This document shows, piece by piece, positions 3,054-27,369 of a DNA stretch of 64,000 nt (its first letter is position 1; every line of letters begins with the position of its first letter). Position numbers and translations under genes: made by a program. This stretch comes from Sphingopyxis panaciterrulae. GTDB lineage: Bacteria > Pseudomonadota > Alphaproteobacteria > Sphingomonadales > Sphingomonadaceae. Location: positions 124,001 to 188,000 of the forward strand of contig NZ_JACIJH010000007.1 in NCBI RefSeq assembly GCF_014199295.1, written 5' to 3'. The notes below the pieces were generated by a model. It was not told the origin of the DNA, made no database searches, and worked only from the letters and a program-made list of their open reading frames with translations.

Positions 3054-5450
3054 TCATCTGAAGGAGAAATTGGCCCGCACACCGCAGCGGCGCCCTTCGC
3101 GCGGCTGGATCTGATAGACGACCTCGCCATTGATGTTGCGCGAGTTGAAGCCGACGCTGGCGTCGCGGTCGTTCAGCATGTTGTTGCAGAAGGCGCCGAG
3201 CCTTACCCCTTCCTTCTCCAGCGAGAAATTCAGGTTGACGGTGCTGTAGGAGGGCACCCAGGCAAGGTTGACCGGCGTGTCATATTGCTTGCTGCGATAG
3301 ATATAATCCATGCGCAGGGTCGCATCGAAGCCCGCGAAGGCCGGAGCGGTGAATTGCGCGCCGCCGTTGAACGAGTGCTTCGACGTGTTCTGGATACGCT
3401 TGCCGCTGGCATCGCCGCCGGGGAAGCCATAGATGTCGGCATTTTCGACATTGTAAGCCGAGAATACCGCATCGCGATATTTGGCGTCGTTCAGCGAATA
3501 TCCGACATTGAGGATAAAGCCATCGGTCAGGACGGCCGAGCCTTCGAACTCGATGCCTTTCACCCTCGATTTCGCGGCATTGGCGATTGCGGTCACGGTG
3601 CGGCTGACGCTCGCCACGAACAGCGTGTTGGAAACCTGCTGGTTGGTCCAGTCCACATAATAGGCCGCGATCGAGCCCGTCAGGCGCCGGTCGAGCAGGT
3701 TGAACTTCAACCCCGCCTCATAGCTCCAGGCCTTTTCGGGCTTGTAGGTCGCCCATTCGGGCAGGATGTTCGGATTGGCCGGCGTGGCCAGCACGGACAC
3801 GCCTGCATTGATGCCGCCCGACTTGGTGCCCTTTGCCGCGGACAGATACAGCGACAGATCATCACTCGGCCGATACTGAAGGATGACGCGCGGCGTGAAA
3901 TATTTGAAGTTCGCCTTTTCGAGGCCGGATCCCACTCCGCCGGGCGCGGCGCTCAGGAAGCTGTTGTCGATCTGCTTGTCTTCCCAGGTGTAGCGCCCTT
4001 CGGCGGAGACGATGAACTGGTCCGTCAGATTGAGGTCGACGGACGCGAAGGCCGACAGGAATTCGGCCCGCGCAGACGTGATTTCGGCAATCGGGATGAC
4101 GCCGTCCTCGATCACTGCGATCGTGTTGGCGACCGGATTCGGTCCCAGCGGCGTGTTGGTGATGATCTCGCCGCCCTGGCGGCGGGTCGAATCGACGTTG
4201 AGCCGGCTGTAATAGCCGCCGATGGCCCAGTTCAGGAACGAATTGCCGGTGGATTGCAGGCGCAGTTCCTGACTGATGGCGTCGCGCTTTTCCTTCGTGC
4301 CCGACAGCGTCTGCATCAGCAGCCGGCGCGGCGACGAGCCGGGCGCCCGCGGCGTCAGCAGAAAGATCGTGCCGTCCGGGCTGCGATCCTGGTCGGCCAG
4401 CGTGTCGAAGGTCCGATGATCGTAACCGGAGATCGACGTCAGCATCAGATTGTCCCACTCGGCCGTCACGGTCAGATTGCCGTGGACGGCTTCGCTGTCA
4501 CCCGCGAAGGCGCGGGGGTCGTAGGTGAAGTCTTCGTTGGGATCAGTGTGTAGTTCGCCGCGATAGAGCGTGCCGTATCCCGACGGCGCACCGCGGGACA
4601 CCGTCCGGCAGCACAGGTTGGGATCGTCGGTCGCGACGGCGTTGCGCGCGAAGGTGTTGACGTGGCTGTCCTCGTAGGAGAGCTGAAGCACCGCCTTCAC
4701 CCTGTCCGACATCTGGGCGAGCAGGCCTGCCCGGGCGAACCAGGTTTCGCGCGCGGAAAGCCGCTGGCCGCTGACAGCGTCCTTGTAATAGCCGCCGCTG
4801 TTGTCATAGCCCGCGTCGACGCGCATGGCGACCTGTCCGGGAAGCAGCGCGCCGTTGACGAAGCCCGTGATCCCGCGGCGCTCGCCGTCGCCGAGCACCG
4901 CCGAACCGCCGGTCTCGAAATCCATCGTCGGCTTCTTGGTGATATAGTTGATCGCGCCGGCGAAGCTGTTGCGGCCATATTGCGCGCTCTGCGGCCCGCG
5001 CAGGATCTCGACGCGCTGTATGCCCTCCATGAAGATGGTGGAACTGCTGAAACCGTCGATATAGACGCCGTCGATGAAGGTCGCGACGTTCGTTTCCTCA
5101 CCGGCGCGGCTCGACTGCGACATGCCGCGAATGACCGGACGCGCGGTACTGACGCCGCCGGGCGACGAGAAGTCGAACCCGGGGGTCTGCAGTGACAGGT
5201 CGTCCTGATTGTTGATGTTCCGCTCTGTCAGCGTCTCTCCGCTGAAGCTGGACACGGCGAGCGGCGCCTGGAGAATCGACTCCTCCTTGTTGCGCGCCGT
5301 CACGACGATATCTTCCTGCGCCCGCGACGACGAGGCGGAGGACTGGTTCGAGGGATCCTGGGCGTGGGCCGGTGCGGCCAGAAGCAGCGGCACGGACATG
5401 GCGGTCGCGATACCCGAACCCAATTTGAACCTGATCCCATTCATTTGCAT
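3054..5450 (-). CDS. TonB-dependent outer-membrane receptor
   Basis: This 798-residue receptor has a signal peptide ending in APAHA, a TonB-box-like segment (EDIVVTARNKEE), a plug domain (QAPLAVSSFSG ... RGPQSAQYGRNSFAGAINYITKKP) and a 22-strand-type barrel ending in aromatic ..ANFSFR. The family imports ferric chelates or, in sphingomonads, many organic compounds. Its promoter carries one copy of the palindromic element shared across this cluster, which ties it to the adjoining oxidative genes rather than to the metal operon on its left. Two in-frame ATGs lie six bases apart (5450 and 5444); the purine-rich GAGGGG fits the second slightly better. The ligand is unknown. Confidence 0.93.
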   Translation of the reverse strand: MQMNGIRFKLGSGIATAMSVPLLLAAPAHAQDPSNQSSASSSRAQEDIVVTARNKEESILQAPLAVSSFSGETLTERNINNQDDLSLQTPGFDFSSPGGVSTARPVIRGMSQSSRAGEETNVATFIDGVYIDGFSSSTIFMEGIQRVEILRGPQSAQYGRNSFAGAINYITKKPTMDFETGGSAVLGDGERRGITGFVNGALLPGQVAMRVDAGYDNSGGYYKDAVSGQRLSARETWFARAGLLAQMSDRVKAVLQLSYEDSHVNTFARNAVATDDPNLCCRTVSRGAPSGYGTLYRGELHTDPNEDFTYDPRAFAGDSEAVHGNLTVTAEWDNLMLTSISGYDHRTFDTLADQDRSPDGTIFLLTPRAPGSSPRRLLMQTLSGTKEKRDAISQELRLQSTGNSFLNWAIGGYYSRLNVDSTRRQGGEIITNTPLGPNPVANTIAVIEDGVIPIAEITSARAEFLSAFASVDLNLTDQFIVSAEGRYTWEDKQIDNSFLSAAPGGVGSGLEKANFKYFTPRVILQYRPSDDLSLYLSAAKGTKSGGINAGVSVLATPANPNILPEWATYKPEKAWSYEAGLKFNLLDRRLTGSIAAYYVDWTNQQVSNTLFVASVSRTVTAIANAAKSRVKGIEFEGSAVLTDGFILNVGYSLNDAKYRDAVFSAYNVENADIYGFPGGDASGKRIQNTSKHSFNGGAQFTAPAFAGFDATLRMDYIYRSKQYDTPVNLAWVPSYSTVNLNFSLEKEGVRLGAFCNNMLNDRDASVGFNSRNINGEVVYQIQPREGRRCGVRANFSFR

Positions 5451-5552
5451 AGTCCCCTCTGTCCAGTCCTGATCGGATGCGTCCGGATTCCCGTCGAATT
5501 TGCCATGGTCCGGATAGTCGGCCCAGGGCGGCCTCGGTCGAGCCGGTCCGCT

Positions 5553-5580
5553 ATATGTTATATAGACATAATGATATAAT
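5553..5580. promoter_or_regulatory. Cluster operator, copy 1 (upstream of the TonB receptor)
   Basis: An AT-only island in GC-rich DNA contains half-sites TTATAT and ATATAA in inverted orientation and the heptamer CATAATG. It lies about 105 bases before the receptor start. The same heptamer recurs in six other intergenic regions of the cluster. It is interpreted as a GntR-regulator site; no binding evidence exists. Confidence 0.5.
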
Positions 5581-5679
5581 AAAATGCCCTGTCAACCCGC
5601 ATTCGACAGGGGATGTTGTCAAGGCCGGCCTTGTCCCGGCTACGGGTCGCGTTTCGCGGAAAACCGAGGCTTTGCGGTC

Positions 5680-5710
5680 CGCCGGACCGGCGCAACAGGC
5701 CGGTCCGGCG
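5680..5710 (-). terminator. Strong hairpin downstream of the nitrilase-like gene
   Basis: A perfect 12-bp inverted repeat (CGCCGGACCGGC / GCCGGTCCGGCG) with a 7-base loop starts 31 bases past the nitrilase-like stop codon. It separates that gene from the TonB receptor gene, which has its own promoter element. No T-run follows, so it may be a weak or factor-assisted terminator or an RNA-stabilising hairpin. Confidence 0.45.
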
Positions 5711-5740
5711 CTGGCAGAGGCAGGGCGATTCGGGCGCGGC

Positions 5741-6811
5741 CTATCCCTGCCAGAAGCTGGTCCAGCGGAATTTGTCTTTCAGATAATCATAGGCGTCCCG
5801 CTTGGTTTCGGGCACCCGGGCAAGCCACATATTGGGATCGTAGCGTTCCCGATAATCGTCATAGACGTGCCGGTAGAGCGAGAAATGGACATCGGGGATG
5901 CGGTGGGCCTTTCGATAGGATTCCATGTCGAACACCGCGCGCCGCTTGGTCTCGAACTTGTCTGCCTCCGCCAGGACGACGCCCTTGGGGCCGAAGATGG
6001 CCGACCGGCCGACCCAGTCGTTCCGCGGCGCCTGTTCGACGAAATAATTGTCCGATGGCCGGAACGTGTCGATCGAATTGTTCACGATCGTGACGAAGAC
6101 ATCGTTGTGATAGGCGGTCAGGCGCATGTCGTGCCATTCGCAGCCGCCGGTGGCCGTGCGCAGGATGATCTCCGCGCCCTTGAGCGTCATGCAGCGGAAC
6201 AACTCCGGTTCGAACTGGACCGACGACAGGGAGATGTTGCCGATGTCGGTCCGCTCGACGGGGATGACCGCGTCCAGTCCGTACATTTCGACATAGCGGT
6301 CATAGACATCGTAGATCGTCGTGGTGAACTGCTCCACGCCGGGCCACATGCCGCGCATGTTGCGCTGCTTCCAGTGACGCGCGATCAACTCGCCCGTGGG
6401 CGCGATCAGCAACTGGGTGTTCATCGTGTGCCCGGCCCAGTCGTCGTCGAGCATCTGGCAGCCGAAGGCGATGTAGCAATTATACTGCCGGGCCTTCTTT
6501 CCCAACTCCTGAATCTCCGGACCGTCGGGGTGACGCGAGACGCGCAGATATTGCGCCAGGTCCCAGGGCGCGAAGCCGTGCAGCGGAAATTCGTGAAAGC
6601 ACAGAAGATCGCAGCGACCGCCGGTCTGTTGGGCCTTGTCGATCGCGTTCAGCATATAGGCGAGATTGTCGCGGATACCCGCTTCGGGATTGTCGCCGTC
6701 GACGGCACGGACGGGCGTCTGGACGATCCCGACCGCCACCTTGGCCGAGCGCAGGGGCGCGGTTTCATAGGTGCCGTCGTGTCGAACGAACCCATCGCGA
6801 CGTTGTGACAT
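5741..6811 (-). CDS. Nitrilase/amidase-superfamily protein lacking the catalytic cysteine
   Basis: This 356-residue C-N hydrolase-fold protein resembles aliphatic amidases. The catalytic Glu is present (FHEFPLHGF, E74) and so is the Lys (HWKQRNMRG, K148). The segment that should carry the nucleophilic Cys reads GNISLSSVQFEPELFR (191-206), with Ser or Val where 'ICxDxxxPE' is expected. Downstream LKGAEIILR still aligns with the amidase family (MKGAELIVR). It may be non-catalytic, use Ser, or be a binding or regulatory protein. It is transcribed divergently from the Rieske oxygenase across a shared operator, so a role in the same pathway is likely. The fold is firm; the activity is doubtful. 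Confidence 0.85.
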   Translation of the reverse strand: MSQRRDGFVRHDGTYETAPLRSAKVAVGIVQTPVRAVDGDNPEAGIRDNLAYMLNAIDKAQQTGGRCDLLCFHEFPLHGFAPWDLAQYLRVSRHPDGPEIQELGKKARQYNCYIAFGCQMLDDDWAGHTMNTQLLIAPTGELIARHWKQRNMRGMWPGVEQFTTTIYDVYDRYVEMYGLDAVIPVERTDIGNISLSSVQFEPELFRCMTLKGAEIILRTATGGCEWHDMRLTAYHNDVFVTIVNNSIDTFRPSDNYFVEQAPRNDWVGRSAIFGPKGVVLAEADKFETKRRAVFDMESYRKAHRIPDVHFSLYRHVYDDYRERYDPNMWLARVPETKRDAYDYLKDKFRWTSFWQG

Positions 6812-6871: not shown

Positions 6872-6894
6872 AATATCATTATGATGACATGATG
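6872..6894. promoter_or_regulatory. Cluster operator, copy 2 (between nitrilase-like and Rieske genes)
   Basis: The element reads ATATCATTATG followed by ATGACATGATG, containing the shared heptamer on the minus strand (CATTATG) and a GACATGATG tail also found upstream of other genes here. It sits about 27 bases before the Rieske start and 60 before the divergent nitrilase-like start, so one site could control both. Confidence 0.55.
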
Positions 6895-6920: not shown

Positions 6921-8105
6921 ATGCTGATCAACAATTGGTATGTGGCTTCCGAGGCGTCCGAAGTCGTCATGGGCAGCCCCAGGAAGGTTCGGATGCTGGG
7001 ATTCGACTTCGTCCTGTTTCGCGACGGAACCGGACGGGTGGCCTGCTTGTCGGACGTCTGCATCCACCGCGGCGCGTCGCTGAGCAAGGGGCGGTGCGAG
7101 GGTGACAGGGTGGCCTGCCCCTTTCACGGATGGGAGTTCGACGGCGAGGGGCGGTGCCAGAAGATTCCCGCCCTTGGCGACACCAAGGTACCGAAGCGGG
7201 GGCGCATCGACAGTTATCCGACGAAGGAGATTTACGGCTGGATCTGGGTTTTCCTGGGCGACCTGCCCGAGGACGAACGCCCCGAGCCGCCCACCCTGCT
7301 GCCCGAATATCACCAGACCGATGCGTGGCGCACCACGCGCATGGTGATCGAGGCGCCGGTGAACTGGACCAAGTTCGAGGAAAATTCGCTCGATACCGCG
7401 CATCTGTCCTTCGTCCACAAGGCGTTCGGCAACCGGATGGACCCGAAGGCGTCGCTGGTGCCGATCGAGCGCACAGCCTATGGCGCGCGCGTCGCCCGCG
7501 AGCGCACGCCGCCCAAGCCCGAGGCGAAAAGCGGCATATTAGGCGAACTGCTCGCCCAGCCGCGCGGCAAGACACGCGTCGAGCTGGAATTTTCGATATT
7601 GGGCCTGTGCCATCGCATCAATCCGACCTTCCGGCCGGGCATGGCGCAGGTGGTATTTTCGGCCTCGACGCCGATCGACCCGCACCACACCCGCCAGTTC
7701 GGCCTCCAGTCCCGCAACTATGCGATCGAACCCGACTATGACGCCGAGCGCCTGGAGGGTCGGCGCGTCGCGATCGGCGAGGATATCGCCGTGGTGTCCA
7801 CCGTCCGCCCCGCGGTCGGGCCGACGCCCTTCTCGGAAGAATTCCTGACGCGCGCAGACGAAATGGAAACGCGGTTCCGGACGATGCTATTCCGCATGAT
7901 CGAGGCCGGTTGGGAAATCGACTATGCGAAGGTCGAGGCGGAGTGGGACCGGAAAGTCTATGTCATCCCCAGCCCGGAACGCCGCAAGGACCCCAAGAAC
8001 TGGGTGCATGAAGCGGTCCCCATGACGCGGCCCCGCGATCCGGATTTCGGGTGGCATGCCCTGGCGGCCGAAGTTTGCCAGCCGGTGGCGGAGTCTTCTG
8101 AATGA
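6921..8105 (+). CDS. Rieske non-heme iron oxygenase, catalytic alpha subunit
   Basis: This 394-residue protein has a full Rieske motif, C47-x-H49 and C66-x2-H69 (CIH ... CPFH). It also has the mononuclear iron motif EN-x2-D158-x2-H161-x4-H166 (ENSLDTAHLSFVHK). It resembles vanillate-demethylase/PobA-type monooxygenase alpha subunits, which hydroxylate or dealkylate aromatic or amine substrates. It starts a three-gene run and its stop overlaps the next start (ATGA). No dedicated ferredoxin or reductase is encoded nearby, so electrons must come from a partner elsewhere or from a generalist system. The substrate is unknown. Confidence 0.93.
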   Translation: MLINNWYVASEASEVVMGSPRKVRMLGFDFVLFRDGTGRVACLSDVCIHRGASLSKGRCEGDRVACPFHGWEFDGEGRCQKIPALGDTKVPKRGRIDSYPTKEIYGWIWVFLGDLPEDERPEPPTLLPEYHQTDAWRTTRMVIEAPVNWTKFEENSLDTAHLSFVHKAFGNRMDPKASLVPIERTAYGARVARERTPPKPEAKSGILGELLAQPRGKTRVELEFSILGLCHRINPTFRPGMAQVVFSASTPIDPHHTRQFGLQSRNYAIEPDYDAERLEGRRVAIGEDIAVVSTVRPAVGPTPFSEEFLTRADEMETRFRTMLFRMIEAGWEIDYAKVEAEWDRKVYVIPSPERRKDPKNWVHEAVPMTRPRDPDFGWHALAAEVCQPVAESSE

Positions 8106-9007
8106 GCGGCGCCGCGCGCACGCCGGTCGCCGGTGCAGGGAGCATCGTGACGTTTCAGCCCGGCGACCTGCTTCTTGCGGCCAGCGATGTCGACGACCGC
8201 AACATCGACCTGCGCAACCATCGCGGGCCGGGGCGCATCCTGCACGTCGGTGCCGCGTTCGATGCGAAATCGACCCTGTGGACCGGCGTGGAAGGGCTGT
8301 TGGTCGGCCTGGCCATCGATCCGGCCGACGGCAGCGTCTGGGGTGCCGATCCGACCGCGAGAAAGCTGATCCACCTGTCCCCGGGCGGCGAGGCCCTGTC
8401 GGTTCCGGCGTTGCCCGAGCGGCCCTGGGGAACGGTCGTCTTCGATGCCGACGGGCGGATGATGCTGGGCGTGCACACGCGCCGGGGGCCGGCGCCCGAC
8501 GACATCTTGGGAGCGGCGAATCTCGTCCGCCTCGAAGGCGAGGGCTGGCGCGGCTTCACGCTGCGGTCGGACGGCGGCCACGCGGGTTTCCACCAGGTGT
8601 CGTCGATCGCGCTCAAGGGCGCGGTGGCGGCGCATCTGGCCGAAGGCGGGCGCCGGATATTCCGCCACGACCTCGATGCCGACCGGCCGCTCGATCCCTT
8701 GCTCGACATGGAATCCGGGGGCGGCGAAGGCCGCGTCTTCGGGGTTTGCGCGCTGGCGGAGGGCTGGCTGGCGGCCACCGGCGACAGCGTCCTGCATCTC
8801 GAAGAGCAGGGGCGGATCGTCGCCCGCTGGTCCATGCCGTCCGAACGGGGGTGGACGCGCGTGACCCCGGCGAAGAACGGCGAGGAATTCTTCGTCAATA
8901 ATTTTCTCGAAGGCGTGATCGAACGGCGGCGCGTCGCCGACGGACAAGTCGTGGCGCGCCATGACATAGGCCGGAAATGCGCGCTGTGCGGCGTCGCTGA
9001 GGTCTGA
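8102..9007 (+). CDS. SMP-30/gluconolactonase-like beta-propeller protein
   Basis: This 301-residue protein carries repeated blade-like segments (GLLVGLAIDPADGSVWGAD, WGTVVFDADGRMMLGV, HAGFHQVSSIALKG). These resemble SMP-30/strictosidine-synthase-type six-bladed propellers. Such proteins hydrolyse lactones or act as binding domains. No signal peptide is seen, so it is probably cytoplasmic. The C-terminus carries a Cys pair (CALCGV). The start overlaps the Rieske stop and the ABC binding-protein gene follows after one base, so the three are probably co-translated. Lactonase function is an inference from fold only. Confidence 0.6.
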   Translation: MSGAARTPVAGAGSIVTFQPGDLLLAASDVDDRNIDLRNHRGPGRILHVGAAFDAKSTLWTGVEGLLVGLAIDPADGSVWGADPTARKLIHLSPGGEALSVPALPERPWGTVVFDADGRMMLGVHTRRGPAPDDILGAANLVRLEGEGWRGFTLRSDGGHAGFHQVSSIALKGAVAAHLAEGGRRIFRHDLDADRPLDPLLDMESGGGEGRVFGVCALAEGWLAATGDSVLHLEEQGRIVARWSMPSERGWTRVTPAKNGEEFFVNNFLEGVIERRRVADGQVVARHDIGRKCALCGVAEV

Positions 9008-9008
9008 G

Positions 9009-10640
9009 ATGAAGGGAATGCAAATGAATGGATATATTCGTCGCGGCGTGACGGCCCTGCTCGCGGCCGCGATGGTGTCGGTCGCGGCATGCGGCGGGGG
9101 CGGTACGGGGCCGTCGGGCGACGCGAATATCCTGAAGCGCGGCACGGCCAGCGAACCGCCGTCCATCGATCCCCATCTGGCGCAAGGGAACAGTTCCTCT
9201 GCGCTGATCGACGATCTGTTCATCGGCCTGACGACGACCGATGCCGAAGGGCGGATGATCGGCGGCCTCGCCGAGCGTTGGGACGTGTCCGACGACGGGC
9301 TGGTCTGGACCTTTCACCTGCGTCCGAACCTGTCCTGGTCGGATGGCAAGCCTTTGACCGCCGACGATGTCGTCTGGTCGTTCCGCAGGCTGATGGACCC
9401 CAAGACGGGCGCGCGTTACGCCGCCAATCTCTATGTGCTGAAGGGCGGACGGGCGGTCAATCAGGGCGCGCCGATGGCGCAGCTTGGCGTCAGCGCGCCC
9501 GATCCGCAGACCGTCCGGTTCGAGCTCGAGCGTCCGACCCCCTATTTTCCCCGGATTCTGACTTCCAACGCCACGGTTCCGGTGCCGCGCCACGCCATCG
9601 AGGCGAACGGGCGCAACTGGACGAAGGCGGGAACCATGGTGTCCAACGGTGCCTTCACCCTGACCGAATGGGTGCCCAACACGCGGATCGCGATCCGCAA
9701 GAATCCCCGCTTTTTCGATGCCGCCAATGTGAAGCTGGACGGCGTTACCTATTTCCCGACGGACAATACCGGCACGCTGGTCAACCGCTATCGCGCCGGC
9801 GAAGTCGACGTGATCCTGAATTTCCCGCCCGACCAGACCGATTTCCTTCGCAAGAATTTCGGCGACGAGGTTCAGGTCAGCCCGAACCAGGGGCTTTATT
9901 ATTTCCTCTTCAACACCAAAAGGCCGCCGTTCGACAATGTGAAGGTGAGGGAGGCGCTGTCGATCGCGGTCGACCGCGAGGCGATAACCCGGCAGGTCCT
10001 GAAGGGCGAGGGCGAACCGGCCTGGTCGCTCGTGCCCAGCGACATCAGCGATTACAAGCGCATTCCGTCCCCCGATGCGGCGACGCCCTATGCCGACCGA
10101 CTGGCCCGCGCCAGGACGCTGCTGACCGAGGCGGGCTATGGCGCCGGCAAGCCGCTGACGCTGGAGTTGCGCTATGACAGCAAGGAGGACAGCCGCCAGA
10201 TCGCCGTCGCGATGAGCGAGATGTGGAAGAAGATCGGGGTGAGCGCGTCGCTGAAGGCGTCGGATTTCCGCGGTATCGTCGGCGATACGCGGGCGGGGCG
10301 GTTCGACGTGATCCGCTATCAGTGGTTCGCGCCCTATGACGACCCGTCGACCTTCCTGGCACTGGTCCGTGGCCGGTCGTCGACCAATCTGACTGGCTAT
10401 GCGAATGGTCGATACGATGCCGAACTCGCTGCGGCGGACATGCAGGAAGACCCCGCCGCGCGCATGGCGCAACTGGCGAAGGCGGAGGCCGACGTGATGA
10501 AGGATTATCCCGTCATGCCGATCTATTTCACGACCGCCCGCCGTATCGTTTCAAGCCGGGTGCATGGCTGGCATCAGGCAAAGGGCGGCAACATGCAGTC
10601 GCGTTGGCTTTCGCTCGATGCCGGCAAGGCCACCAAATGA
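9009..10640 (+). CDS. ABC transporter substrate-binding lipoprotein, SBP family 5 (Opp/Dpp type)
   Basis: This 543-residue binding protein has a lipoprotein signal ending in lipobox VAAC. The SBP_bac_5 signature follows: EPPSIDPHL, GLAERWDVSDDGLVWTFHLR, LSWSDGKPLTADDVVWSFRR. The family feeds peptides, nickel or other small solutes to OppBCDF importers. The matching permeases and ATPases are on the opposite strand at 14942-18672. ATG 9009 has GAGG six bases upstream; ATG 9024 has AAGGGA six bases upstream and gives a more typical signal peptide. Placement with the Rieske gene suggests that the imported compound is its substrate or precursor. Confidence 0.92.
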   Translation: MKGMQMNGYIRRGVTALLAAAMVSVAACGGGGTGPSGDANILKRGTASEPPSIDPHLAQGNSSSALIDDLFIGLTTTDAEGRMIGGLAERWDVSDDGLVWTFHLRPNLSWSDGKPLTADDVVWSFRRLMDPKTGARYAANLYVLKGGRAVNQGAPMAQLGVSAPDPQTVRFELERPTPYFPRILTSNATVPVPRHAIEANGRNWTKAGTMVSNGAFTLTEWVPNTRIAIRKNPRFFDAANVKLDGVTYFPTDNTGTLVNRYRAGEVDVILNFPPDQTDFLRKNFGDEVQVSPNQGLYYFLFNTKRPPFDNVKVREALSIAVDREAITRQVLKGEGEPAWSLVPSDISDYKRIPSPDAATPYADRLARARTLLTEAGYGAGKPLTLELRYDSKEDSRQIAVAMSEMWKKIGVSASLKASDFRGIVGDTRAGRFDVIRYQWFAPYDDPSTFLALVRGRSSTNLTGYANGRYDAELAAADMQEDPAARMAQLAKAEADVMKDYPVMPIYFTTARRIVSSRVHGWHQAKGGNMQSRWLSLDAGKATK

Positions 10641-10655: not shown

Positions 10656-10687
10656 GGCAGGCGGGACCGGGCGACCGGCCCCCTGCC
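10656..10687. terminator. Possible bidirectional terminator hairpin
   Basis: An imperfect GC-rich inverted repeat (GGCAGG...CCGG / CCGG...CCCTGCC) lies exactly between the convergent binding-protein and GntR genes. The T-tract is poor on both strands, so this is tentative. Confidence 0.3.
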
Positions 10688-11947: not shown

Positions 11948-11980
11948 CCCGATCCGCAAAGGGGGCTTGCTTTCAGTCGT

Positions 11981-20134: not shown

Positions 20135-20200
20135 CCGCCGGGTCGGCGGTCGTCCTCGATCCTGTGTAGACGATTGGTTGAATTTTGCCCTTAACATCGT

Positions 20201-20225
20201 AATGTCATCATGATAATATGACATT
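20201..20225. promoter_or_regulatory. Cluster operator, copy 5
   Basis: Perfect 8-base half-sites AATGTCAT and ATGACATT are inverted around a 9-base spacer, ending 31 bases before the flavoprotein start. The half-sites match those of the palindrome at 24089-24109, with wider spacing. Confidence 0.6.
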
Positions 20226-20256
20226 TCATGTATCGAGGGCGAAAGGATCCATATTG

Positions 20257-21447
20257 ATGCAGGCTTCCTTGCTGAAGGAAAGCGAAACCGCGCCGACGCT
20301 CGAGTCGCTGATCGCCGCTGTCGATCGGCTGGGTCCGACGCTGCGCGCGCGGGCGGCGGAAGCGGAAGGGCAGCGCCAGCTTCCCGCAGAGACGATCCGC
20401 GACCTGTTCGATGCCGGAGTCCTGCGCTTCTTCATTCCCCGGCGCTTCGGCGGCCACGAGCTGGAATGGGGCGGCCATCTCGCGCTCGGGCGCCGTCTCG
20501 CGCATCATTGCGCCTCGACCGCCTGGATCAGTTGCGTTGTCGGTTCCCATGCCACCTATGTCGGGCGCATGGACCCGCGCGCCCAGCAGGACGTATGGGG
20601 CAGCGACTCCGACATTCTGGTCGCGACCGGATCGGTGTCGCGCAACGTGTCGGTGGAGGCGGTGGAGGGCGGCTTTCGCATCAGCGGCCGCTGGAGCTTC
20701 TGCAGCGGCATCGACCACGCCGGCTGGGCGCTGCTTCGCGCCTCGCCGACGGGAGACCAGCGGCAGACCTATTTCCTGTTCCCCCGGTCCGATTTCCGCA
20801 TCGACGACGACTGGTTCGTCAGCGGCATGAGCGGCACCGGATCGAAGAGCGCGATTGTCGACAATGCTTTCGTCCCCACTTATCGCACGCTGCCGCTCGG
20901 GACACTGATGGCGCCCGAACCGCCGGGCGGGGCAGTCAATCCGGGTTATATCTACAAATATAATTTCCGTCCCTTTTCGGGCGCGAATCTGCTGGGTCCG
21001 ATCATCGGCGGCGCCGAGGCGGTGGTGGCGGCCTATCGCGACCTGCTGGAGGCGGGAACGCCGGGTCAGTCGAAGGACGATGTGCAGACGCAATTGCGCC
21101 TCGCCGAATCGGAGGCGGAGGTCGGCGCGGCCCTGTGCCTGATGGATTCGCTGGTGGCGCGGTTGCAGGATTACGGCCGCAACAATATCGACGTGCCCCA
21201 TCCGGAACGGATCGGCTTCGTCCGCGACCGAACCTTCGCCGCCCGGCTCTGTTTCAACGCGGCCGAGCGGCTGGTGACCTCGCTGGATCAGTCGGTCGTG
21301 CTCTCCGAGCATCCCATCCAGCGCTGCTTCCGCGACCTCGGCGGGATGATCCAGCAGATCGGCGTCAACTGGGACCGCAACATGACCGACGTGATCAAGG
21401 CGAGCTTCGGCCGCCAGACCAACATCCCCTTCCTCAACACCCAGTAA
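20257..21447 (+). CDS. Acyl-CoA-dehydrogenase-type flavin monooxygenase (HsaA-like group D)
   Basis: This 396-residue protein has the acyl-CoA dehydrogenase fold: an N-terminal helical domain (FFIPRRFGGHELEWGGHLALG), CASTAWISCVVGSHA, a middle beta domain with ISGRWSFCSGIDHA, and a C-terminal helical domain. The lack of the usual catalytic Glu context and the presence of a flavin reductase gene in the cluster (26830) favour an HsaA/HpaB-like two-component monooxygenase using reduced FMN or FAD. AAAGGA precedes the ATG at 20257; an upstream ATG at 20218 lies inside the operator and was rejected. The next gene is a shorter paralogue. Confidence 0.88.
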   Translation: MQASLLKESETAPTLESLIAAVDRLGPTLRARAAEAEGQRQLPAETIRDLFDAGVLRFFIPRRFGGHELEWGGHLALGRRLAHHCASTAWISCVVGSHATYVGRMDPRAQQDVWGSDSDILVATGSVSRNVSVEAVEGGFRISGRWSFCSGIDHAGWALLRASPTGDQRQTYFLFPRSDFRIDDDWFVSGMSGTGSKSAIVDNAFVPTYRTLPLGTLMAPEPPGGAVNPGYIYKYNFRPFSGANLLGPIIGGAEAVVAAYRDLLEAGTPGQSKDDVQTQLRLAESEAEVGAALCLMDSLVARLQDYGRNNIDVPHPERIGFVRDRTFAARLCFNAAERLVTSLDQSVVLSEHPIQRCFRDLGGMIQQIGVNWDRNMTDVIKASFGRQTNIPFLNTQ

Positions 21448-21458: not shown

Positions 21459-22487
21459 ATGGTGGACCTTATTCAAGACAAGGCAGCGCTGTCGCTGCGC
21501 ATCGACGGCATCGCAGAGGCACTGACACAGTCGGCCGGCGACGATGTGGAGTCGACGGCTTCGACACTGTCGCTGGTGCGCGATGCCGGCCTTTTCGAGC
21601 TGGACGATCCCCTCCTGGCGCTCGAGGCCACCCGCGCCGTGGGCCGCTTTTGCGCCTCGACGGCCTGGATGCTCGCCGAACATGGCGAAGCGCGGCGGCT
21701 GCTCGGCGGCTTCCCGGCGTCCGTGCGCGACGCTGTGGGGCGCGGGCTGATCGTCATCGCGCGCGGCGGCGAGGGCGCGAGCCTGTCGGGCGACGCGATC
21801 CGCGGCGTCTGGCCGTCGGTCGGCGGCCTTGTCCATGCCGACTGGCTGTTGCTGACGGGCGTTGCCGATGCATCGGGCCAGGACGGCGTTGCGCTGGTTC
21901 CTGCCGGGCCGGTTCGGGCCACCCCCTACGCCTATCTGGGCGGGCTGCGCGGCGTGGGCTGGCAGAGAGTCGAAATCGACGCCCTGTCCGTCGCGCCGGG
22001 ATGCTGGGCGCCGGCCTTTGTCTTCGCGGACCGGGGGCTGGGCGGCAACCGCCTGATCGGCAGCCTGATCGGCTGTGCAGAGGGCGGGTATCGGGACTAT
22101 GTCCGGATGACGCGATCGCGCATCACCGGCATCGGTGGCGCCTCGGTCGCCGGCTTCACGCAGGTGCAGGCTCGCCTCGCCGAGAGCGACGCCGAACTGG
22201 GCTGCGCGACCCGGCTGTTCGAGGCGCTGGTGGCTGGTCTCGATGGGGATGACGATGCGCATGCGCGCCGCGACCGCGCCTATATGGCGCATCTGGCGCT
22301 GGACGCCGTCACGCGGCTCGTGCGGCAGATGGGAGCGATGGGGCTTTCGGAGAGCAACCCGGTGCAGCGCCGCTATCGTGACCTGCGGACGCTGGCAGCC
22401 GACGCCGCCTTCGCCTGGGACGACCATATGGCGGGCTATGGCCGCGCGCTGCTCGGCATCGGAGAGACGGTCGACGCTGCGGCTTAG
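21459..22487 (+). CDS. Shortened acyl-CoA-dehydrogenase-like protein, likely partner of the preceding gene
   Basis: This 342-residue product aligns with the upstream flavoprotein (CASTAWML versus CASTAWIS; FTQVQARLAESDAELG versus VQTQLRLAESEAEVG; ESNPVQRRYRDL versus SEHPIQRCFRDL). It has a shorter N-terminal domain and lacks the GRWSFCSG flavin-loop segment, reading RGVWPSVGG instead. The gap to the upstream stop is 11 bases. It may form a heteromer in which one chain is catalytically reduced, as known for paired acyl-CoA dehydrogenases of sterol degradation. That comparison is inference. Confidence 0.82.
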   Translation: MVDLIQDKAALSLRIDGIAEALTQSAGDDVESTASTLSLVRDAGLFELDDPLLALEATRAVGRFCASTAWMLAEHGEARRLLGGFPASVRDAVGRGLIVIARGGEGASLSGDAIRGVWPSVGGLVHADWLLLTGVADASGQDGVALVPAGPVRATPYAYLGGLRGVGWQRVEIDALSVAPGCWAPAFVFADRGLGGNRLIGSLIGCAEGGYRDYVRMTRSRITGIGGASVAGFTQVQARLAESDAELGCATRLFEALVAGLDGDDDAHARRDRAYMAHLALDAVTRLVRQMGAMGLSESNPVQRRYRDLRTLAADAAFAWDDHMAGYGRALLGIGETVDAAA

Positions 22488-22622: not shown

Positions 22623-24041
22623 TCAAGCGAGATGCTCTCCTAGCCAGCGGCCGAACGCGAGCGCCGGGGACAGCGCCATTCCTCCGACGCCGCCTTTCCC
22701 GGACAGGTTGCTGCCCAGAACCTCGCCCACCGCGTAAAGCCCGGTTATGGGCTTTTCGTCGCTGTCGAGCACATGGAACGCGGTATCGACCTTCAGCCCC
22801 GCGAAACCGCGCACGGTATAGCTGGCGATCGGCAGGGCATAGAAGGGCGGCTGCGCGATGGGCAGGGGCATGTGGCGGCGGCCCAGCCGGTCCCGACCGG
22901 TTTCGGCCGCACGGTTATAGTCGGCGACGGTCTCTTCCAGCTTCGCGGCGGCGATGCCGCAAGCGTCGGCGAGGGCGGCGATACTGTCCGCCGTGACGAT
23001 GCTGCCGTCCGGATCATAGAAGCGCGCGGCCTTTTCCCGGTCGAAATAGGTGAAGATGGTCGGGGCCACCTCGCGAATCGCCTGATCGTAGATGACGAAT
23101 CCGCAGGATTTCGGCTGTTCCATCATCAACGCGGAACGCGTGTCGGCGCTGTCGTTGTCCTCGGCGAAGAAGCGCTCGCCGTTCAGGTTGACGATGATTT
23201 CCCATGGCTGCCGGTCCTGCGGGACCAGCCCGCCCGGCGCGCGATAGCGCGGCGCGTCGGGTGCGCCGAGCGTATGATCGAGCACGCCGCCGAAATTCGG
23301 CAGGAATTTCTCGTCATGCACGATGCTGCCCCCGGCGCCGAGACCGAGTTCCAGCCCGCGTCCGGTGGCGTGATGATAGGAACCGGGCCACAGCGTTGCG
23401 CCCCGGTGGAGCCGGGCGAAGAGGTCCGGATTGGCACCATAGCCGCCCGTCGCAAGGACGATATTGCGGCCGCGAAACGACTCTCCGCCCGCCTTCAGGC
23501 CGCAGACGATGCCGTCCTCGATGATCAGGCCGTCGACATCGCTGCCCAGTTTCAACGTCACCCGGCCCGCGCGGACATGCTCGTCGAGCATCGGCTTCAG
23601 CACCTCGAGGATCGAAAGGCCTTCCTTCTTCCCCCAATAGGTGCGCGCGATGCTGTAGGCCTCATGCCCGTGGATGACGCGGGGCATATCGTCTTCCATC
23701 TCGAACCCGTGATCCATCAGCCAGTCGATCAACGGCCCCTGCAGGCGCACGGCGAGTTCGAGCATGGCGGAATCCGACGTTCCCTTGCTGATCCGCATGG
23801 CATCGTCATAATGGTCCTGCGCGGTATCGACGATGCCCCTCTGAGCCTGAAGCTTCGTTCCTGCTCCGCTGAGCTGTCCGCGGTTGATGAGAAGCGCGCC
23901 ACCCACCTGGCCGGCCTTCTCCAGAAGGCAGACCGACCGGCCGCGCCGGGCCGCGAAAATGGCGATGGTCAGGCCGGCCGGGCCGGCCCCGGCGATGACG
24001 ATATCGTACGTCGCTTGCGGAGTGGAATGGGCAGTCGTCAT
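22623..24041 (-). CDS. FAD-dependent oxidoreductase of the fumarate-reductase / ketosteroid-dehydrogenase group
   Basis: This 472-residue flavoprotein has an N-terminal dinucleotide fold (IVIAGAGPAGLTIAIFAARRG), the substrate-side region ATGGYGANPDLFARL, and the C-terminal FAD-capping motif GEVLGSNLSGKGGVGGMALS. The family reduces or desaturates C=C bonds next to carbonyls (fumarate, 3-ketosteroids, urocanate). No signal peptide or multiheme domain is present, so it is a soluble cytoplasmic type. A near-ideal cluster palindrome lies 48 bases upstream of its start. It converges on the acyl-CoA-dehydrogenase-like pair. Confidence 0.9.
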   Translation of the reverse strand: MTTAHSTPQATYDIVIAGAGPAGLTIAIFAARRGRSVCLLEKAGQVGGALLINRGQLSGAGTKLQAQRGIVDTAQDHYDDAMRISKGTSDSAMLELAVRLQGPLIDWLMDHGFEMEDDMPRVIHGHEAYSIARTYWGKKEGLSILEVLKPMLDEHVRAGRVTLKLGSDVDGLIIEDGIVCGLKAGGESFRGRNIVLATGGYGANPDLFARLHRGATLWPGSYHHATGRGLELGLGAGGSIVHDEKFLPNFGGVLDHTLGAPDAPRYRAPGGLVPQDRQPWEIIVNLNGERFFAEDNDSADTRSALMMEQPKSCGFVIYDQAIREVAPTIFTYFDREKAARFYDPDGSIVTADSIAALADACGIAAAKLEETVADYNRAAETGRDRLGRRHMPLPIAQPPFYALPIASYTVRGFAGLKVDTAFHVLDSDEKPITGLYAVGEVLGSNLSGKGGVGGMALSPALAFGRWLGEHLA

Positions 24042-24088: not shown

Positions 24089-24109
24089 ATAATGTCATAA
24101 TGACATTAT
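24089..24109. promoter_or_regulatory. Cluster operator, copy 6 (best palindrome)
   Basis: This is a perfect 10-1-10 inverted repeat, ATAATGTCAT-A-ATGACATTAT, with two overlapping CATAATG heptamers. It is 48 bases before the flavoprotein start and 227 before the divergent GntR start. It is the most symmetrical copy and the best candidate to define the consensus. Confidence 0.75.
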
Positions 24110-24335: not shown

Positions 24336-25115
24336 ATGACCGTAAATTCCTCCGAAGTCGTCCGCGACTCCATCAAGGCGCTGCGATATCATCAGGTCTA
24401 TTCCATTCTGCGGGGGTGGATATTCGACGGTACCTATCCGGCGGGAGCGAAGCTGCCCCCGGAAGGCGAATTGTGCGAGCGGCTGGGCGTATCGCGCATA
24501 ACGTCGCGCAAGGCGCTGGACCTGCTGGTGAGCGAGGGGCTGGTCCGGCGCGTGCAGGGCAAGGGGACCTTCGTCGCATCCGAATTGAACGGCGCGCCGA
24601 CGGTCGGCGATATGGAACAGTTGATCCACCGCGTCGCGCGCGCCTCGTCCCGATCGAAGGTCGTCGACGTGAAGATCCGCGAAGTGATCGGCGATCCGGA
24701 CATCTGTCGCGACCTCGATATCGACGAGGGAGGCAAGGTCCGCGAGATCGGCTTCGTGCGGACGCTCGACGGCAAGCCGACCGGCTATCGGCAATCCTAT
24801 CTTCCACTGGATGTGGCGCCCGGCATCACGCCGGATGAGATTCGGCGCAAGCCCATGCTGCAGGTGTTCGAAGACCATGGCGTAAGGATTTCGGCGGCGG
24901 ACACGCTGGTCGGCGCCTGCCTCGCGGACACGCAAAAGGCCATGATCCTCGATACCACGGTCGGCGTGCCGCTGGTCCGTATCCGCCTGATCCTTCTCGA
25001 CGAGGACAAGCGGCCGATCGAGCGCAGCACCCGATATTATCTTGCCGATTATTACGAGCATCACCTGTATCTGACCCGGTCGGCCGGACTGAACGCCAGC
25101 AATCTGAGCATCTGA
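24336..25115 (+). CDS. GntR-family transcriptional regulator with UTRA ligand domain (copy 2)
   Basis: This 259-residue HutC-type regulator has a winged helix at residues 15-85 (YHQVYSILRGWIFDGTYPAG, then LGVSRITSRKALDLL and VQGKGTFVAS) and a UTRA domain ending in HHLYLTRS. It is clearly paralogous to the regulator at 10687 over its whole length. The cluster operator at 24089 lies in its divergent upstream region, so autoregulation is possible. The ligand is presumably the imported compound or a product. Confidence 0.93.
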   Translation: MTVNSSEVVRDSIKALRYHQVYSILRGWIFDGTYPAGAKLPPEGELCERLGVSRITSRKALDLLVSEGLVRRVQGKGTFVASELNGAPTVGDMEQLIHRVARASSRSKVVDVKIREVIGDPDICRDLDIDEGGKVREIGFVRTLDGKPTGYRQSYLPLDVAPGITPDEIRRKPMLQVFEDHGVRISAADTLVGACLADTQKAMILDTTVGVPLVRIRLILLDEDKRPIERSTRYYLADYYEHHLYLTRSAGLNASNLSI

Positions 25116-25163
25116 ACCGCGTGCCGTGGTGCCGGCACCGCCGGCCTCCATCTCGTCTTGTAT

Positions 25164-25183
25164 AATATCATAATGACATGATG
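25164..25183. promoter_or_regulatory. Cluster operator, copy 7
   Basis: The sequence AATATCATAATGACATGATG shares 15 bases (CATAATGACATGA plus flank) with the copy upstream of the ABC importer. It ends 47 bases before the second methyltransferase start. Confidence 0.6.
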
Positions 25184-25230: not shown

Positions 25231-26364
25231 TTGTCCGAACCACGCCCGCTTCCCCATGCCATGTCCGCTCTGCCCGATGCGGCGGAACAGGCCCGACTCG
25301 ATTTCGCGGTGGCCTTCAAGCATCTGCTGGGACATCCGATCAAATCCGCCTTGCCGCATATCTATCGCGAGCGTGCGGAGCCCGCCTGGGCCGCGCAACA
25401 TGGCCGCGCGCCGGAGAATTGGCAGGAAGTCGGAGAGGCTCTGTCGGACACGTCCGCCTATCGCTGGTGGAGCGCTCTCGCCCGCGCCCAGCAGGAATAT
25501 TATGTCGATGTGACCTCCACCGTATGCGAGCGCCAACTGCCCGAGCTGATCGAGCGCTATCGCGCGATCTCCCGGGCGGCGACGTGTGGCACGCTGACCC
25601 TCGATCCCGACCTCGCGATTCCGCCCTATCAGTCCGAAGTCGACATTCACTGCGTTCCGGGGTCCTATTTCCTCGAACGCACCGAGGACGACGTGTGGGC
25701 GGGCGCGCGCTCGGATCTCGGCAGCTTCGTCTTCATGATGGGGGGCAACGGCCCCCTGTGCGACGACAAGGGCCAGACGGGCGCCGCTTTCCTGAAAGCC
25801 CGCTTCCCGGATTTCAAGGCGACACGCGTGCTCGACATGGGCTGTACCGTCGGCATGTCGACGCTTCCCTATGTCGATGCCTATCCCGAGGCCGAGGTCC
25901 ATGCGATCGACCTGTCCGCGCCGTCGCTGCGTTTTGCCCACGCTCGCGCCGAATCGCTGGGCAAGGCGGTGCATTTCCGCCAGGCCAATGCCGAGCATGC
26001 GCCTTATGGCGACGGGAGTTTCGACCTGGTGGTCAGCCATATCCTGCTGCACGAGCTTTCCTGCGGCGCGCTCGACCGCGTGCTCGCCGAATGTCACCGG
26101 CTGCTGCGCCCCGGCGGTATCATGCTGCATGTCGAGGTTCCGATCCGCCGCAAGGACCCGCTCGACCAGTTTCTGTGGAACTGGGACACGACGAACAACA
26201 ACGAACCCTTCTGGTCGACGCTGGCGGAACTCGACCTTGTCGAACCGGCGGTGCGCGCGGGCTTTCCCCGGGAATCGATCTTCGAGGCCGAAATGCCCTC
26301 GCTGTCCCGCAAGGGAGGCATCTGGCTCGGCTATGGCGCGCGGAAAGCGGGAGACGCACAATGA
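25231..26364 (+). CDS. Class I SAM-dependent methyltransferase with N-terminal helical domain (copy 2)
   Basis: This 377-residue paralogue of the 19013 gene has VLDMGCTVGMS (motif I), VHAIDLSAPSLRFAHARAES, SFDLVVSHILLHE and NNNEPFW. It keeps the same extra N-terminal helical domain (about 190 residues), which contains a variant EPAWAAQHGRAP segment matching EPAFSARVRRAP in copy 1. A TTG start is chosen because AGGAGA lies seven bases upstream; the ATG at 25261 lacks such a site. It overlaps the following small helical gene by four bases (ATGA). Confidence 0.87.
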   Translation: MSEPRPLPHAMSALPDAAEQARLDFAVAFKHLLGHPIKSALPHIYRERAEPAWAAQHGRAPENWQEVGEALSDTSAYRWWSALARAQQEYYVDVTSTVCERQLPELIERYRAISRAATCGTLTLDPDLAIPPYQSEVDIHCVPGSYFLERTEDDVWAGARSDLGSFVFMMGGNGPLCDDKGQTGAAFLKARFPDFKATRVLDMGCTVGMSTLPYVDAYPEAEVHAIDLSAPSLRFAHARAESLGKAVHFRQANAEHAPYGDGSFDLVVSHILLHELSCGALDRVLAECHRLLRPGGIMLHVEVPIRRKDPLDQFLWNWDTTNNNEPFWSTLAELDLVEPAVRAGFPRESIFEAEMPSLSRKGGIWLGYGARKAGDAQ

Positions 26365-26720
26365 CCAGGGTTATCAGCGCGCCGCTGCCCAAAGCCGCCA
26401 AGGGCGAGCGCCCCTTCTCGCTGAAGGATGCCGATCACGAGCGGTTGCTGAACATGATCGTCGCCCTGACCGCGGAGATCAGCGTGCTGCAGGACCAGCA
26501 GGACATGCTGACCCGCATCCTGGTTGCGCGCGGCGTCGCCACCGACGAGGAAATAGCCTATTTTCAGCCCGATACCGCCGCCTCCGCGGCGCGGGCGACG
26601 AAGCGCCGCGGACTGATCGAACGCGTCATGCGGATCATCATCGCCGACGCCGAGCGTGCGGTGCGCGACGAGAAGCCCTATGAGGACCTGCTGGCCATGG
26701 TGTCGTCGCCGACGTCCTAG
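26361..26720 (+). CDS. Small helical protein of unknown function (paralogue of the 11597 gene)
   Basis: This 119-residue protein has a heptad-like helix (LLNMIVALTAEISVLQDQQDMLTRILV) and a second C-terminal helix (RGLIERVMRIIIADAERAV). Overlap with the methyltransferase start-stop (ATGA) implies equimolar translation, so it may be a subunit or chaperone of that enzyme. The paralogue at 11597 sits next to a different enzyme set. No recognised domain, signal peptide or metal motif is present. Confidence 0.78.
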   Translation: MTRVISAPLPKAAKGERPFSLKDADHERLLNMIVALTAEISVLQDQQDMLTRILVARGVATDEEIAYFQPDTAASAARATKRRGLIERVMRIIIADAERAVRDEKPYEDLLAMVSSPTS

Positions 26721-26768
26721 CGATTGGGCCTTTGGAAGCGTGGCAAGCCATCATCCGAGCGCTCTAAT

Positions 26769-26795
26769 ACATAATGTTGTTATGTTGACATGATG
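26769..26795. promoter_or_regulatory. Cluster operator, copy 8 (upstream of the flavin reductase)
   Basis: A 6-5-6 palindrome ACATAA-TGTTG-TTATGT is followed by the GACATGATG tail seen in copy 2. It contains the shared heptamer CATAATG and ends about 35 bases before the reductase start. Confidence 0.5.
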
Positions 26796-26829
26796 AATAG
26801 TCCCGCTATCCTGTAGCCATTGTCGCAGG

Positions 26830-27369
26830 ATGAAGGGATGCGATTTGCAGGACGCGATGGACAGGATGAGCGTGCCGACGCGGGTCGACGAGGCGCTGAT
26901 GCGCCGCGTATGCGGCAATTATGCCACCGGCGTCGCGATCGTCAGCACGATGTCGGCGACCGACCAGCCCGTCGCGCTGACGGTCAATTCCTTTTCATCG
27001 GTGTCGCTCGATCCGCCCCTGATCCTGTGGAGCCTGCGCTCGACGTCCCCCAGCCGTCGCCATTTCGAGGAAGGCAAGGCCTTTGCCATCTCCATCCTGG
27101 GGGAGGGGCAGAATGAACTGGCGATGCGTTTCGCGCGTGCCGTTCCGGACAAGTTCGACGGCGTCACGCGCCGCCCCGGCCTGTTGGGCGCCCCCCTGAT
27201 CGAAGGCAGCATCGCCCATCTGGAATGTCTGCGCTACCATCATCTCGAAGCCGGCGATCACATCATTTTCATCTGGCATGTCGTCGAAGCGCGTCAGGCT
27301 CCGGATCGCGCCCCGCTCACCTATTACGAAGGCCGCTTTCATCGCATCGCTCCGCTTCCCGGCGCTTAA
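26830..27369 (+). CDS. Flavin reductase (HpaC/HsaB-like) for a two-component monooxygenase
   Basis: This 179-residue protein has the split-barrel flavin reductase pattern: CGNYATGVAIVST at the start, VALTVNSFSSVSLDPPLILWSL for FMN/FAD, FAISILGEGQ and a C-terminal GDHIIFIWHVVEA. The family supplies reduced flavin to separate oxygenases; the likely client is the acyl-CoA-dehydrogenase-type protein at 20257. Start choice is uncertain: 26830 has no clear ribosome site, while 26857 has AGGA four bases upstream. It carries its own cluster operator. Confidence 0.9.
   Translation: MKGCDLQDAMDRMSVPTRVDEALMRRVCGNYATGVAIVSTMSATDQPVALTVNSFSSVSLDPPLILWSLRSTSPSRRHFEEGKAFAISILGEGQNELAMRFARAVPDKFDGVTRRPGLLGAPLIEGSIAHLECLRYHHLEAGDHIIFIWHVVEARQAPDRAPLTYYEGRFHRIAPLPGA

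Follow-up and report, generated by a model that had tools for sequence, protein, structure and literature searches.

Closest described systems

Catabolism of the nicotinate/nicotine type employs a molybdenum hydroxylase, an FAD hydroxylase and maleamate/maleate steps, and the metallophore systems of staphylopine and pseudopaline use a TonB receptor or an Opp-type importer. Here we analyse 64 kb of Sphingopyxis panaciterrulae (the window; contig C7, positions 124001–188000, of a genome of 4.43 Mb in 35 contigs), in which 22 genes between positions 3054 and 27369 fit one proposed system. We consider it probable that this cluster is an inducible regulon for the uptake and oxidative catabolism of one external small molecule. 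It is sharply defined by one operator and one gene core in four genera, its own included, so that a single induction screen could reveal the substrate.

With nicotinate/nicotine-type pathways the system shares an FAD_binding_3 hydroxylase, an Amdase/EutA-like protein (which we take to belong to the maleate isomerase superfamily), isochorismatase-type hydrolases and an aldehyde dehydrogenase (ALDH), and at the related locus of Thermaurantiacus tibetensis also a molybdenum hydroxylase and an amine oxidase. It differs from them by a Rieske oxygenase (RO), a haem-oxygenase-like diiron protein (HDO), an HsaA-like monooxygenase, two methyltransferases (MT1 and MT2) and import by TonB receptor and Opp transporter. 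Neither a 2,5-dihydroxypyridine dioxygenase nor an N-formylmaleamate deformylase was found among the proteins scanned (no genome-wide dioxygenase search was made), and the nicotine/nicotinate pathway, missing the former enzyme in this set, is kept as a chemical analogy only.

Three further candidates were set aside. The iac cluster for indole-acetate is defined by a two-subunit Rieske dioxygenase with an IacA-type monooxygenase; the RO found here is a large subunit of the VanA_C type, no beta-subunit is encoded among the 22 genes, and the monooxygenase is nearest to HsaA and the C2 component of p-hydroxyphenylacetate hydroxylase (HPAH). Staphylopine-type metallophores involve a nicotianamine-synthase-like enzyme and an opine dehydrogenase, neither of which Pfam detected in the 20 cluster proteins scanned (OppD and OppC, the other two, were judged by homology). 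Breakdown of tetrapyrroles or bilins to maleimides would fit TonB/Opp import and the PuuE-like and LeuCD-type genes described below, but no gene is specific to it, and such compounds are counted as one of several possible N-ring substrates.

HDO (13472–14185, + strand; PF14518, 4.8e-26) is related to CADD and PqqC, aligning with TIGR04305 (2.5e-29) and with the chains 9pj4 and 5vrc. In the alignment with 9pj4 the residues E82/83, H92, E151, H181, D185 and H188 are placed at what we take to be the six ligand positions of CADD-type proteins, and a complete diiron set is predicted. HDO differs from these proteins in its score, 102.4 bits against the TIGR04305 cut-off of 200, and in its place in one operon with ALDH and a short-chain dehydrogenase (SDR). 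OXA (20218–21447, +; likely start at 20257) is a flavin monooxygenase of the HsaA/HPAH C2 kind by its matches to NF045629 (1.7e-72) and 2rfq (2.9e-53), and a flavin reductase (FR; 26830–27369, +; PF01613, 7.2e-39) lies under the same operator. However, OXA scores 244.3 bits against an equivalog cut-off of 450, and it is paired with a shorter chain resembling acyl-CoA dehydrogenases, OXB (21459–22487, +; PF08028, 3e-16; about 29% identical to OXA). The FAD_binding_2 flavoprotein (22623–24041, −; PF00890, 2e-41; TIGR01813, 2.8e-54) resembles flavocytochrome c and tricarballylate dehydrogenase, and ALDH (12015–13457, +; PF00171, 5.3e-106) is nearest to the succinate-semialdehyde dehydrogenase family PRK09407. 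In the NCBIfam comparison, the nearest families of OXA, HDO, the FAD_binding_2 protein and ALDH all stayed below their cut-offs.

Gene islands on the plasmids pJE1 of Sphingomonas sp. JE1 and pTomTYG65b of Sphingobium sp. TomTYG65 (L060 and L062) resemble the cluster in a TonB receptor, a GntR regulator, an SDR and a methyltransferase; the two islands share these together with an alcohol dehydrogenase, in genes of equal-looking size. The pJE1 annotation places MmgE/PrpD and HapK/REDY-like genes in the shared island (hypothetical in the pTomTYG65b record) and, after it, a small protein, FAD oxidoreductases, the two hydantoinase genes A/B and a succinate-semialdehyde dehydrogenase. The hydantoinase and the HapK/REDY-like protein set pJE1 apart from the cluster, and no Opp, nitrilase or haem-oxygenase-like gene is annotated in the plasmid stretch. 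An earlier note on this DNA knew of no described pathway with this gene set; no description of it was found in the literature, which is weak support since subscription journals were mostly uncovered.

A shared operator in front of the operons

Eight palindromic operators of 21 bp with the consensus ATAATGTCATNATGACATTAT precede operons of the cluster. A palindromic matrix derived from nine intergenic regions of the window, eight of which hold a site, scores them at 25.0–36.5 bits; these are in-sample scores, and the next best places in the 64 kb, shifted registers aside, reach 11.3 and 9.6 bits. The stretch between the genes of the regulator GntR1 and the small helical protein SH1 (11458–11596) has no operator by this matrix. 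The pattern ATNATGTCATNATGACATNAT, searched with up to three mismatches in the whole 4.43-Mb genome, has six matches, every one of them within five of the eight operators, and its reversed control has none; the operators at 5560, 6873 and 11979, as well as an 18.1-bit site to the left of the window, differ from it by more than three mismatches.

The operators are located upstream of the TonB receptor (5560–5580; 25.8 bits), between the nitrilase-like protein NIT and RO (6873–6893; 29.0 bits), upstream of ALDH (11979–11999; 25.0 bits), between OppB and MT1 (18860–18880; 27.1 bits), and upstream of OXA (20199–20219; 31.7 bits), of the FAD_binding_2 gene (24089–24109; 36.5 bits, a perfect palindrome), of MT2 (25162–25182; 34.5 bits, with a second overlapping site at 25170) and of FR (26774–26794; 25.1 bits). 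Promoter-like sites overlap five of the eight, at the TonB receptor (5595–5568, −), NIT (6906–6878, −), OXA (20191–20219), the FAD_binding_2 gene (24114–24086, −) and FR (TTGACA-16-TATCCT at 26785–26812). A promoter scan of the operators gave five sites against 1.9 expected, and four against 1.3. Such overlap would be as expected of repressor sites, and is suggestive only. GntR1 (10687–11457, −) and GntR2 (24336–25115, +; 44% identical to GntR1) both combine a GntR winged helix with a UTRA domain according to Pfam, which places them in the HutC subfamily.

The genes of the cluster bear out the inventory of the earlier note, each gene class named there being present as an open frame, with Pfam assignments as given here. 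Import functions comprise the TonB-dependent receptor (3054–5450, −; PF00593, 1.2e-38; PF07715, 8.4e-18), an Opp-type solute-binding protein (SBP; 9009–10640, +; PF00496 (SBP_bac_5), 6.5e-99), the permeases OppB (17749–18672, −; PF00528, 1.1e-44) and OppC (16898–17752, −), and the ATPases OppD (15934–16893, −) and OppF (14942–15937, −; PF00005 and PF08352); OppC and OppD were assigned by sequence and by homologues in relatives. RO (6921–8105, +; PF00355, 9.6e-25; PF19112, 7.2e-14) has the CxH/CxxH and DxxH-x4-H iron motifs, and SDR (14185–14901, +) matches PF13561 at 1.2e-49. A weakly SMP-30/gluconolactonase-like protein (SMP; 8102–9007, +; PF08450 at 8.3e-4, below the gathering score) was missing from the earlier list.

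Distribution and synteny in relatives

A scan of the genome collection with NIT found four loci outside the S. panaciterrulae genome, at 81–92% identity in the best segment. They are a 4.8-kb contig of a metagenome-assembled genome (MAG) of an uncultured member of the Sphingomonadaceae (L051, contig G256:C313) and three long loci, in T. tibetensis (L052, contig G030:C15), a Brevundimonas MAG (L053) and a Terricaulis MAG (L054); the first two are of one genus (g31). Common to the three long loci are NIT, RO, MT2, SH2, GntR1, SH1, ALDH, HDO, SDR, MT1 and OppBCDF, and the short contig has NIT, RO, MT2, SH2 and SMP. In Brevundimonas a second contig carries HDO, SDR and MT1; because each of the two contigs breaks off within an ALDH gene of the cluster kind, we infer that they adjoin. 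As far as the fetched stretches reach, Brevundimonas and Terricaulis have FR, Thermaurantiacus and Brevundimonas have SBP and SMP, OXA/OXB (55%/39%) and the FAD_binding_2 protein (76% over a fragment) are limited to Brevundimonas, and GntR2 (63%) to Terricaulis. Gene order is rearranged between the lineages, and NIT, RO and MT2 of Terricaulis are interrupted by frame changes, perhaps assembly errors. The cluster thus has a conserved core and a variable shell. Loci with distant NIT or MT copies (L069–L074, from G588 and G665) were excluded from these statements on synteny.

Sites above 14 bits number two in the Thermaurantiacus stretch (40 kb), six in Brevundimonas (39 kb) and eight in Terricaulis (45 kb), against means of 0.0, 0.05 and 0.15 in 20 first-order shuffles of these loci; the background is one such site in 20 control regions (400 kb) and four in 512 kb of other loci, reaching up to 19.1 bits. 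The NIT/RO operator is kept at 15.3 bits in Thermaurantiacus, 28.9 in Brevundimonas, 24.1 in Terricaulis and 16.4 on the short contig. Operators also precede SH1, ALDH or GntR1 in Brevundimonas and Terricaulis, and in Terricaulis the FR-Opp genes (18.6 bits); the site before FR of Brevundimonas scores 12.2 bits, below 14. The operator is thus inherited together with the genes. The earlier note had proposed one system and named conserved co-inheritance with the operator as support for it, which is what the relatives show; a single co-regulated and co-inherited system for uptake and oxidation is supported by the synteny of the core in the three long loci and on the short contig and by the operator before the same genes there.

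Further genes are linked to the operator in the relatives, among them an HpaE-like ALDH. In Brevundimonas, operators precede FAD_binding_3-Amdase-ALDH genes and OXA-OXB with two PuuE-like genes. In Terricaulis they stand before an Amdase-FAD_binding_3 fusion, before an ALDH with an FAD hydroxylase, and before a PrpB-like gene beside an AcnA-like one, whose product of 481 amino acids is about half of an aconitase. In Thermaurantiacus an operator precedes a gene string that starts with a molybdenum hydroxylase, continues with FGE-like, amine oxidase and 2Fe-2S genes and ends in MT1; UbiD and a UbiX-type flavoprotein lie near the core. An HcaD-like ferredoxin reductase adjoins MT1 in Brevundimonas and is a plausible partner of RO; the S. 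panaciterrulae genome has three candidate RO ferredoxin reductases elsewhere, at 40–42%. By eye, a relaxase-like gene was noted near the Thermaurantiacus cluster (L031, 3161–4288), which would hint at a mobile element.

Among the 298 genomes of the family, 16 match NIT at 1e-30 or better, with a copy of at least 84% only in S. panaciterrulae, T. tibetensis (G030) and the uncultured Sphingomonadaceae MAG (G256). None of six genomes of the same genus has a match, and across the class 3 of 385 genomes match at 1e-40, own genome included. Because the cluster, with NIT as its marker, is so sporadic, horizontal spread is suggested.

Left flank and a second island

The 24-kb extent given in the earlier note proved too small, as the system continues to the left of the window. 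The adjoining stretch (L135, C7:104001–124000) encodes an ABC-2 transporter of two DUF3526 permeases and an ATPase, with the 18.1-bit operator in front of it, at 16810 of that stretch; the permeases are 41–43% identical to operator-preceded permeases of Terricaulis. Also found there are a third GntR/UTRA gene and an FAD_binding_3-Amdase-ALDH operon, with identities of 57%, 41% and 54% to its Brevundimonas counterparts. The operator-bearing transporter would extend the system by about 7 kb beyond the window edge, or by about 11.5 kb if the FAD_binding_3 operon belongs to it.

A second island of the same genome (contig G000:C23, stretches L044 and L134) comprises four MT copies, FAD_binding_3, DUF1330, an Amdase-like protein (82% to the query), three PuuE-like genes, a PEPM/ICL-like gene, two isochorismatases, two LeuCD sets, CaiB, HMGL and a TonB receptor; the PuuE-like genes are all those found in this genome. 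A link to the cluster of the window is possible.

The methyltransferase and its small helical partner

MT1 (19013–20134, +; PF13649, 1.2e-20; with a long N-terminal region) and MT2 (25261–26364, +; PF13649, 4.7e-22) are class I S-adenosylmethionine (SAM) methyltransferases by their Rossmann SAM domain and DxGCxxG motif. In a structural model of MT2 predicted from five sequences (mean pLDDT, the predicted local distance difference test, of 73.5), two long N-terminal helices precede a SAM domain, which matches many class I methyltransferases, DnrK and RdmB included. The helices (residues 7–104) are barely covered by fold matches, a gap that should not be taken as a sign of a new fold, and residues 125–167 have a pLDDT below 50.

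The small helical proteins SH1 (11597–11947, +) and SH2 (26361–26720, +; overlapping MT2 by 4 bp) have no Pfam match and were assigned by family alignment. Their paralogy, claimed by the earlier note, stands insofar as family members link them; the two themselves give no direct BLAST match and align at 21% identity. The 52 locus groups selected for an MT or NIT gene contain 46 MT genes. For 35 of these an SH gene lies on the same strand at a distance of no more than 600 bp, downstream in 34 cases and with the exact overlap of 4 bp in 18. The other 11 include the MT1 genes of the window, Thermaurantiacus and Brevundimonas, where SH1 is found separately, in the ALDH operon; the count of 11 is an upper bound, since one locus (L040) ends at a stretch boundary with the SH gene on the next stretch. 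An SH profile, built from the window and L051–L054 only, was tested on 20 further stretches with MT and 20 control stretches. It found SH in 20/20 and in 2/20, respectively, and the two controls (L114 and L133) themselves hold MT matches, which amounts to 22 of 22 stretches with MT and none of 18 without.

Within the family, 59 of 298 sampled genomes match MT2 at 1e-60 or better, compared with 17 of 372 in the class at 1e-40 and 4 of 299 in the phylum, own genome included each time. Gene content was compared between the 20 MT islands and the 20 controls with queries from outside those islands (p values uncorrected for multiple tests; L114 and L133 counted as controls despite their MT matches). 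Enriched at p <0.05 are PuuE-like genes (14 vs 1), ALDH (10 vs 4), isochorismatase (9 vs 0), LeuC (9 vs 1), LeuD (8 vs 0), HMGL (7 vs 0), Terricaulis-type Amdase (7 vs 0), NIT (7 vs 1), FAD_binding_3 (6 vs 0) and PrpB-like genes (5 vs 0). CaiB (3 vs 0, p = 0.12), SDR (2 vs 4) and GntR1 (1 vs 0) are not enriched, and Brevundimonas-type Amdase occurs in none of either set. The MT/SH pair and the nitrilase-like protein described next are not peculiar to this cluster.

A nitrilase-like protein without the catalytic cysteine

NIT (5741–6811, −) belongs to the CN_hydrolase domain family (PF00795, 9e-19), as do 19 of 19 members of its alignment (A4). It resembles the aliphatic amidase/formamidase branch in keeping Glu74 and Lys148 of the Glu-Lys-Cys triad, both invariant in these 19 members; three members that read HAQA where the others have HEFP were left out of A4. 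It differs from that branch in the catalytic cysteine, in agreement with the earlier note, which had called it Cys-less: anchored on the PE motif of aliphatic amidase, the position holds Ser196 in NIT, and Ser (19) or Thr (3) in all 22 members of the group, followed by a nearly invariant Ser at 197. In a further, distant group of six the Lys motif is missing, and by the same anchor the position again reads Ser, though the alignment is gapped there. Against solved structures NIT alone gives no match at 1e-3, and the 19-member profile finds aliphatic amidase 2plq at 1.7e-19. Because NIT is 81–84% conserved over its full length across genera, its conservation argues for a function, which may be that of a hydroxyl nucleophile or a binding role.

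By eye, some NIT relatives (L098, L099, L103, L104, L111 and L112) start with a twin-arginine-like leader, and their neighbours are DUF1838-like, cytochrome c or amine oxidase genes next to TonB receptors; the Pfam TAT model scores in only 1 of 19 members.

Proposed system and alternative explanations

In the inducible catabolic regulon proposed here, the TonB receptor would carry the compound over the outer membrane, and SBP with OppBCDF over the inner membrane. One or both HutC-type GntR proteins would sit on the shared palindrome and be released by the compound or an intermediate. To judge by enzyme families, oxidation may proceed by RO, by the two-component flavin monooxygenase (OXA/OXB with FR) and by HDO; the FAD_binding_2 protein may desaturate or reduce, and SDR and ALDH may take alcohol and aldehyde groups to the acid. 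Each methyltransferase and its small helical partner may methylate an intermediate; the overlap by 4 bp and the co-occurrence in relatives show the pairing for MT2 and SH2, and the roles of the MT pair and of NIT are putative. The left block of FAD_binding_3 hydroxylase, Amdase-like protein and semialdehyde-type ALDH would probably continue ring breakdown, and amide-hydrolase-like, aconitase-like and C–C lyase families of the relatives suggest that the ring may end as a substituted maleate-type acid.

The most likely class of substrate would be N-heterocyclic aromatic compounds (pyridine-, pyrrole- or imide-like). Opening of an N-ring to maleate-type acids is favoured because C–N bond enzymes, FAD hydroxylases, Amdase-like proteins and hydratase/lyase pairs occur in the relatives. 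The earlier suggestion of a nitrogen-containing or aromatic molecule finds indirect support in the operator-linked FAD_binding_3, Amdase/EutA-like, PuuE-like, HpaE-like ALDH and molybdenum hydroxylase genes, which do not single out a specific substrate.

Several points weigh against this proposal. The substrate class is read from neighbouring genes only; the cluster lacks a dedicated ferredoxin or reductase as well as any ring-cleavage dioxygenase from a known pathway. Catabolic pathways do not usually involve SAM methylation, which could be a sign of biosynthesis, and the operator-bearing ABC-2 transporter belongs to a kind capable of export. No site above 10 bits lies in front of the left FAD_binding_3-Amdase-ALDH operon, the Thermaurantiacus locus has only its two above 14 bits, and the LeuCD/HMGL/PuuE set of the S. 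panaciterrulae genome lies on another contig, in the island on C23, which has no operator of the window type. Among the MT islands the TonB receptor of the window is not significantly enriched (13 vs 7, p = 0.056), and RO and HDO of the window occur in 0 of 20 other MT islands and 0 of 20 controls.

On a broader scale, we tentatively entertain the idea of an N-ring toolkit of sphingomonads and related alphaproteobacteria, in which a translationally coupled two-subunit MT-SH enzyme would perform an obligate step in many different degradation islands, together with a clade of the nitrilase superfamily that would use a Ser/Thr hydroxyl, or no nucleophile, instead of Cys. The present locus exposes two widespread unexplained parts, the pair of methyltransferase and small protein and the conserved Cys-less nitrilase clade, both tied to islands resembling breakdown pathways for nitrogen-containing compounds, and an answer for one cluster would assign functions in many others.

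It appears rather unlikely that the cluster instead makes and re-imports a metal-binding or signalling molecule, tailored by the oxygenases and methyltransferases and exported by the ABC-2 transporter. A TonB receptor with an Opp importer and two SAM methyltransferases would suit such a system, haem-oxygenase-like diiron enzymes are common in biosynthesis, and the ABC-2 transporter bears the operator both left of the window and in Terricaulis. However, no scaffold-building enzyme (nonribosomal peptide synthetase, polyketide synthase, nicotianamine-synthase-like protein or ligase) was found among the proteins scanned (the cluster and part of the relatives' neighbours), the relatives add hydrolase, Amdase-like, aconitase-like and lyase genes typical of breakdown, and the regulators are of the GntR/UTRA type, not metal regulators.

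Detoxification of a toxic plant or microbial aromatic by oxidation and methylation, with carbon gain secondary, is in our estimation improbable. Methyltransferases and broad oxidation are typical of it, and the sporadic presence of the cluster, with NIT in none of the six genomes of the genus, fits a niche trait; but dedicated import over two membranes would bring the toxin in, and in Terricaulis the regulon reaches PrpB-like and AcnA-like genes.

A chance assembly of unrelated, independently controlled operons, for which varying gene order and the lack of OXA/OXB, FAD_binding_2 or GntR2 at some relatives' loci might speak, is very improbable and largely refuted already by the conservation of the operator, since one motif precedes eight operons and, at up to three mismatches, nothing else in the genome, and the same motif precedes the same genes in three other genera.

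Neighbouring genes

At the left end of the window (119–2514), two genes look by eye like subunits of a metal efflux system, and from 27588 onward the genes appear housekeeping-like by eye. To the right of the cluster, an inverted repeat of 39 nt (30428–30520; 92% complementary, with a loop of 15 nt) may be a dispersed repeat element.

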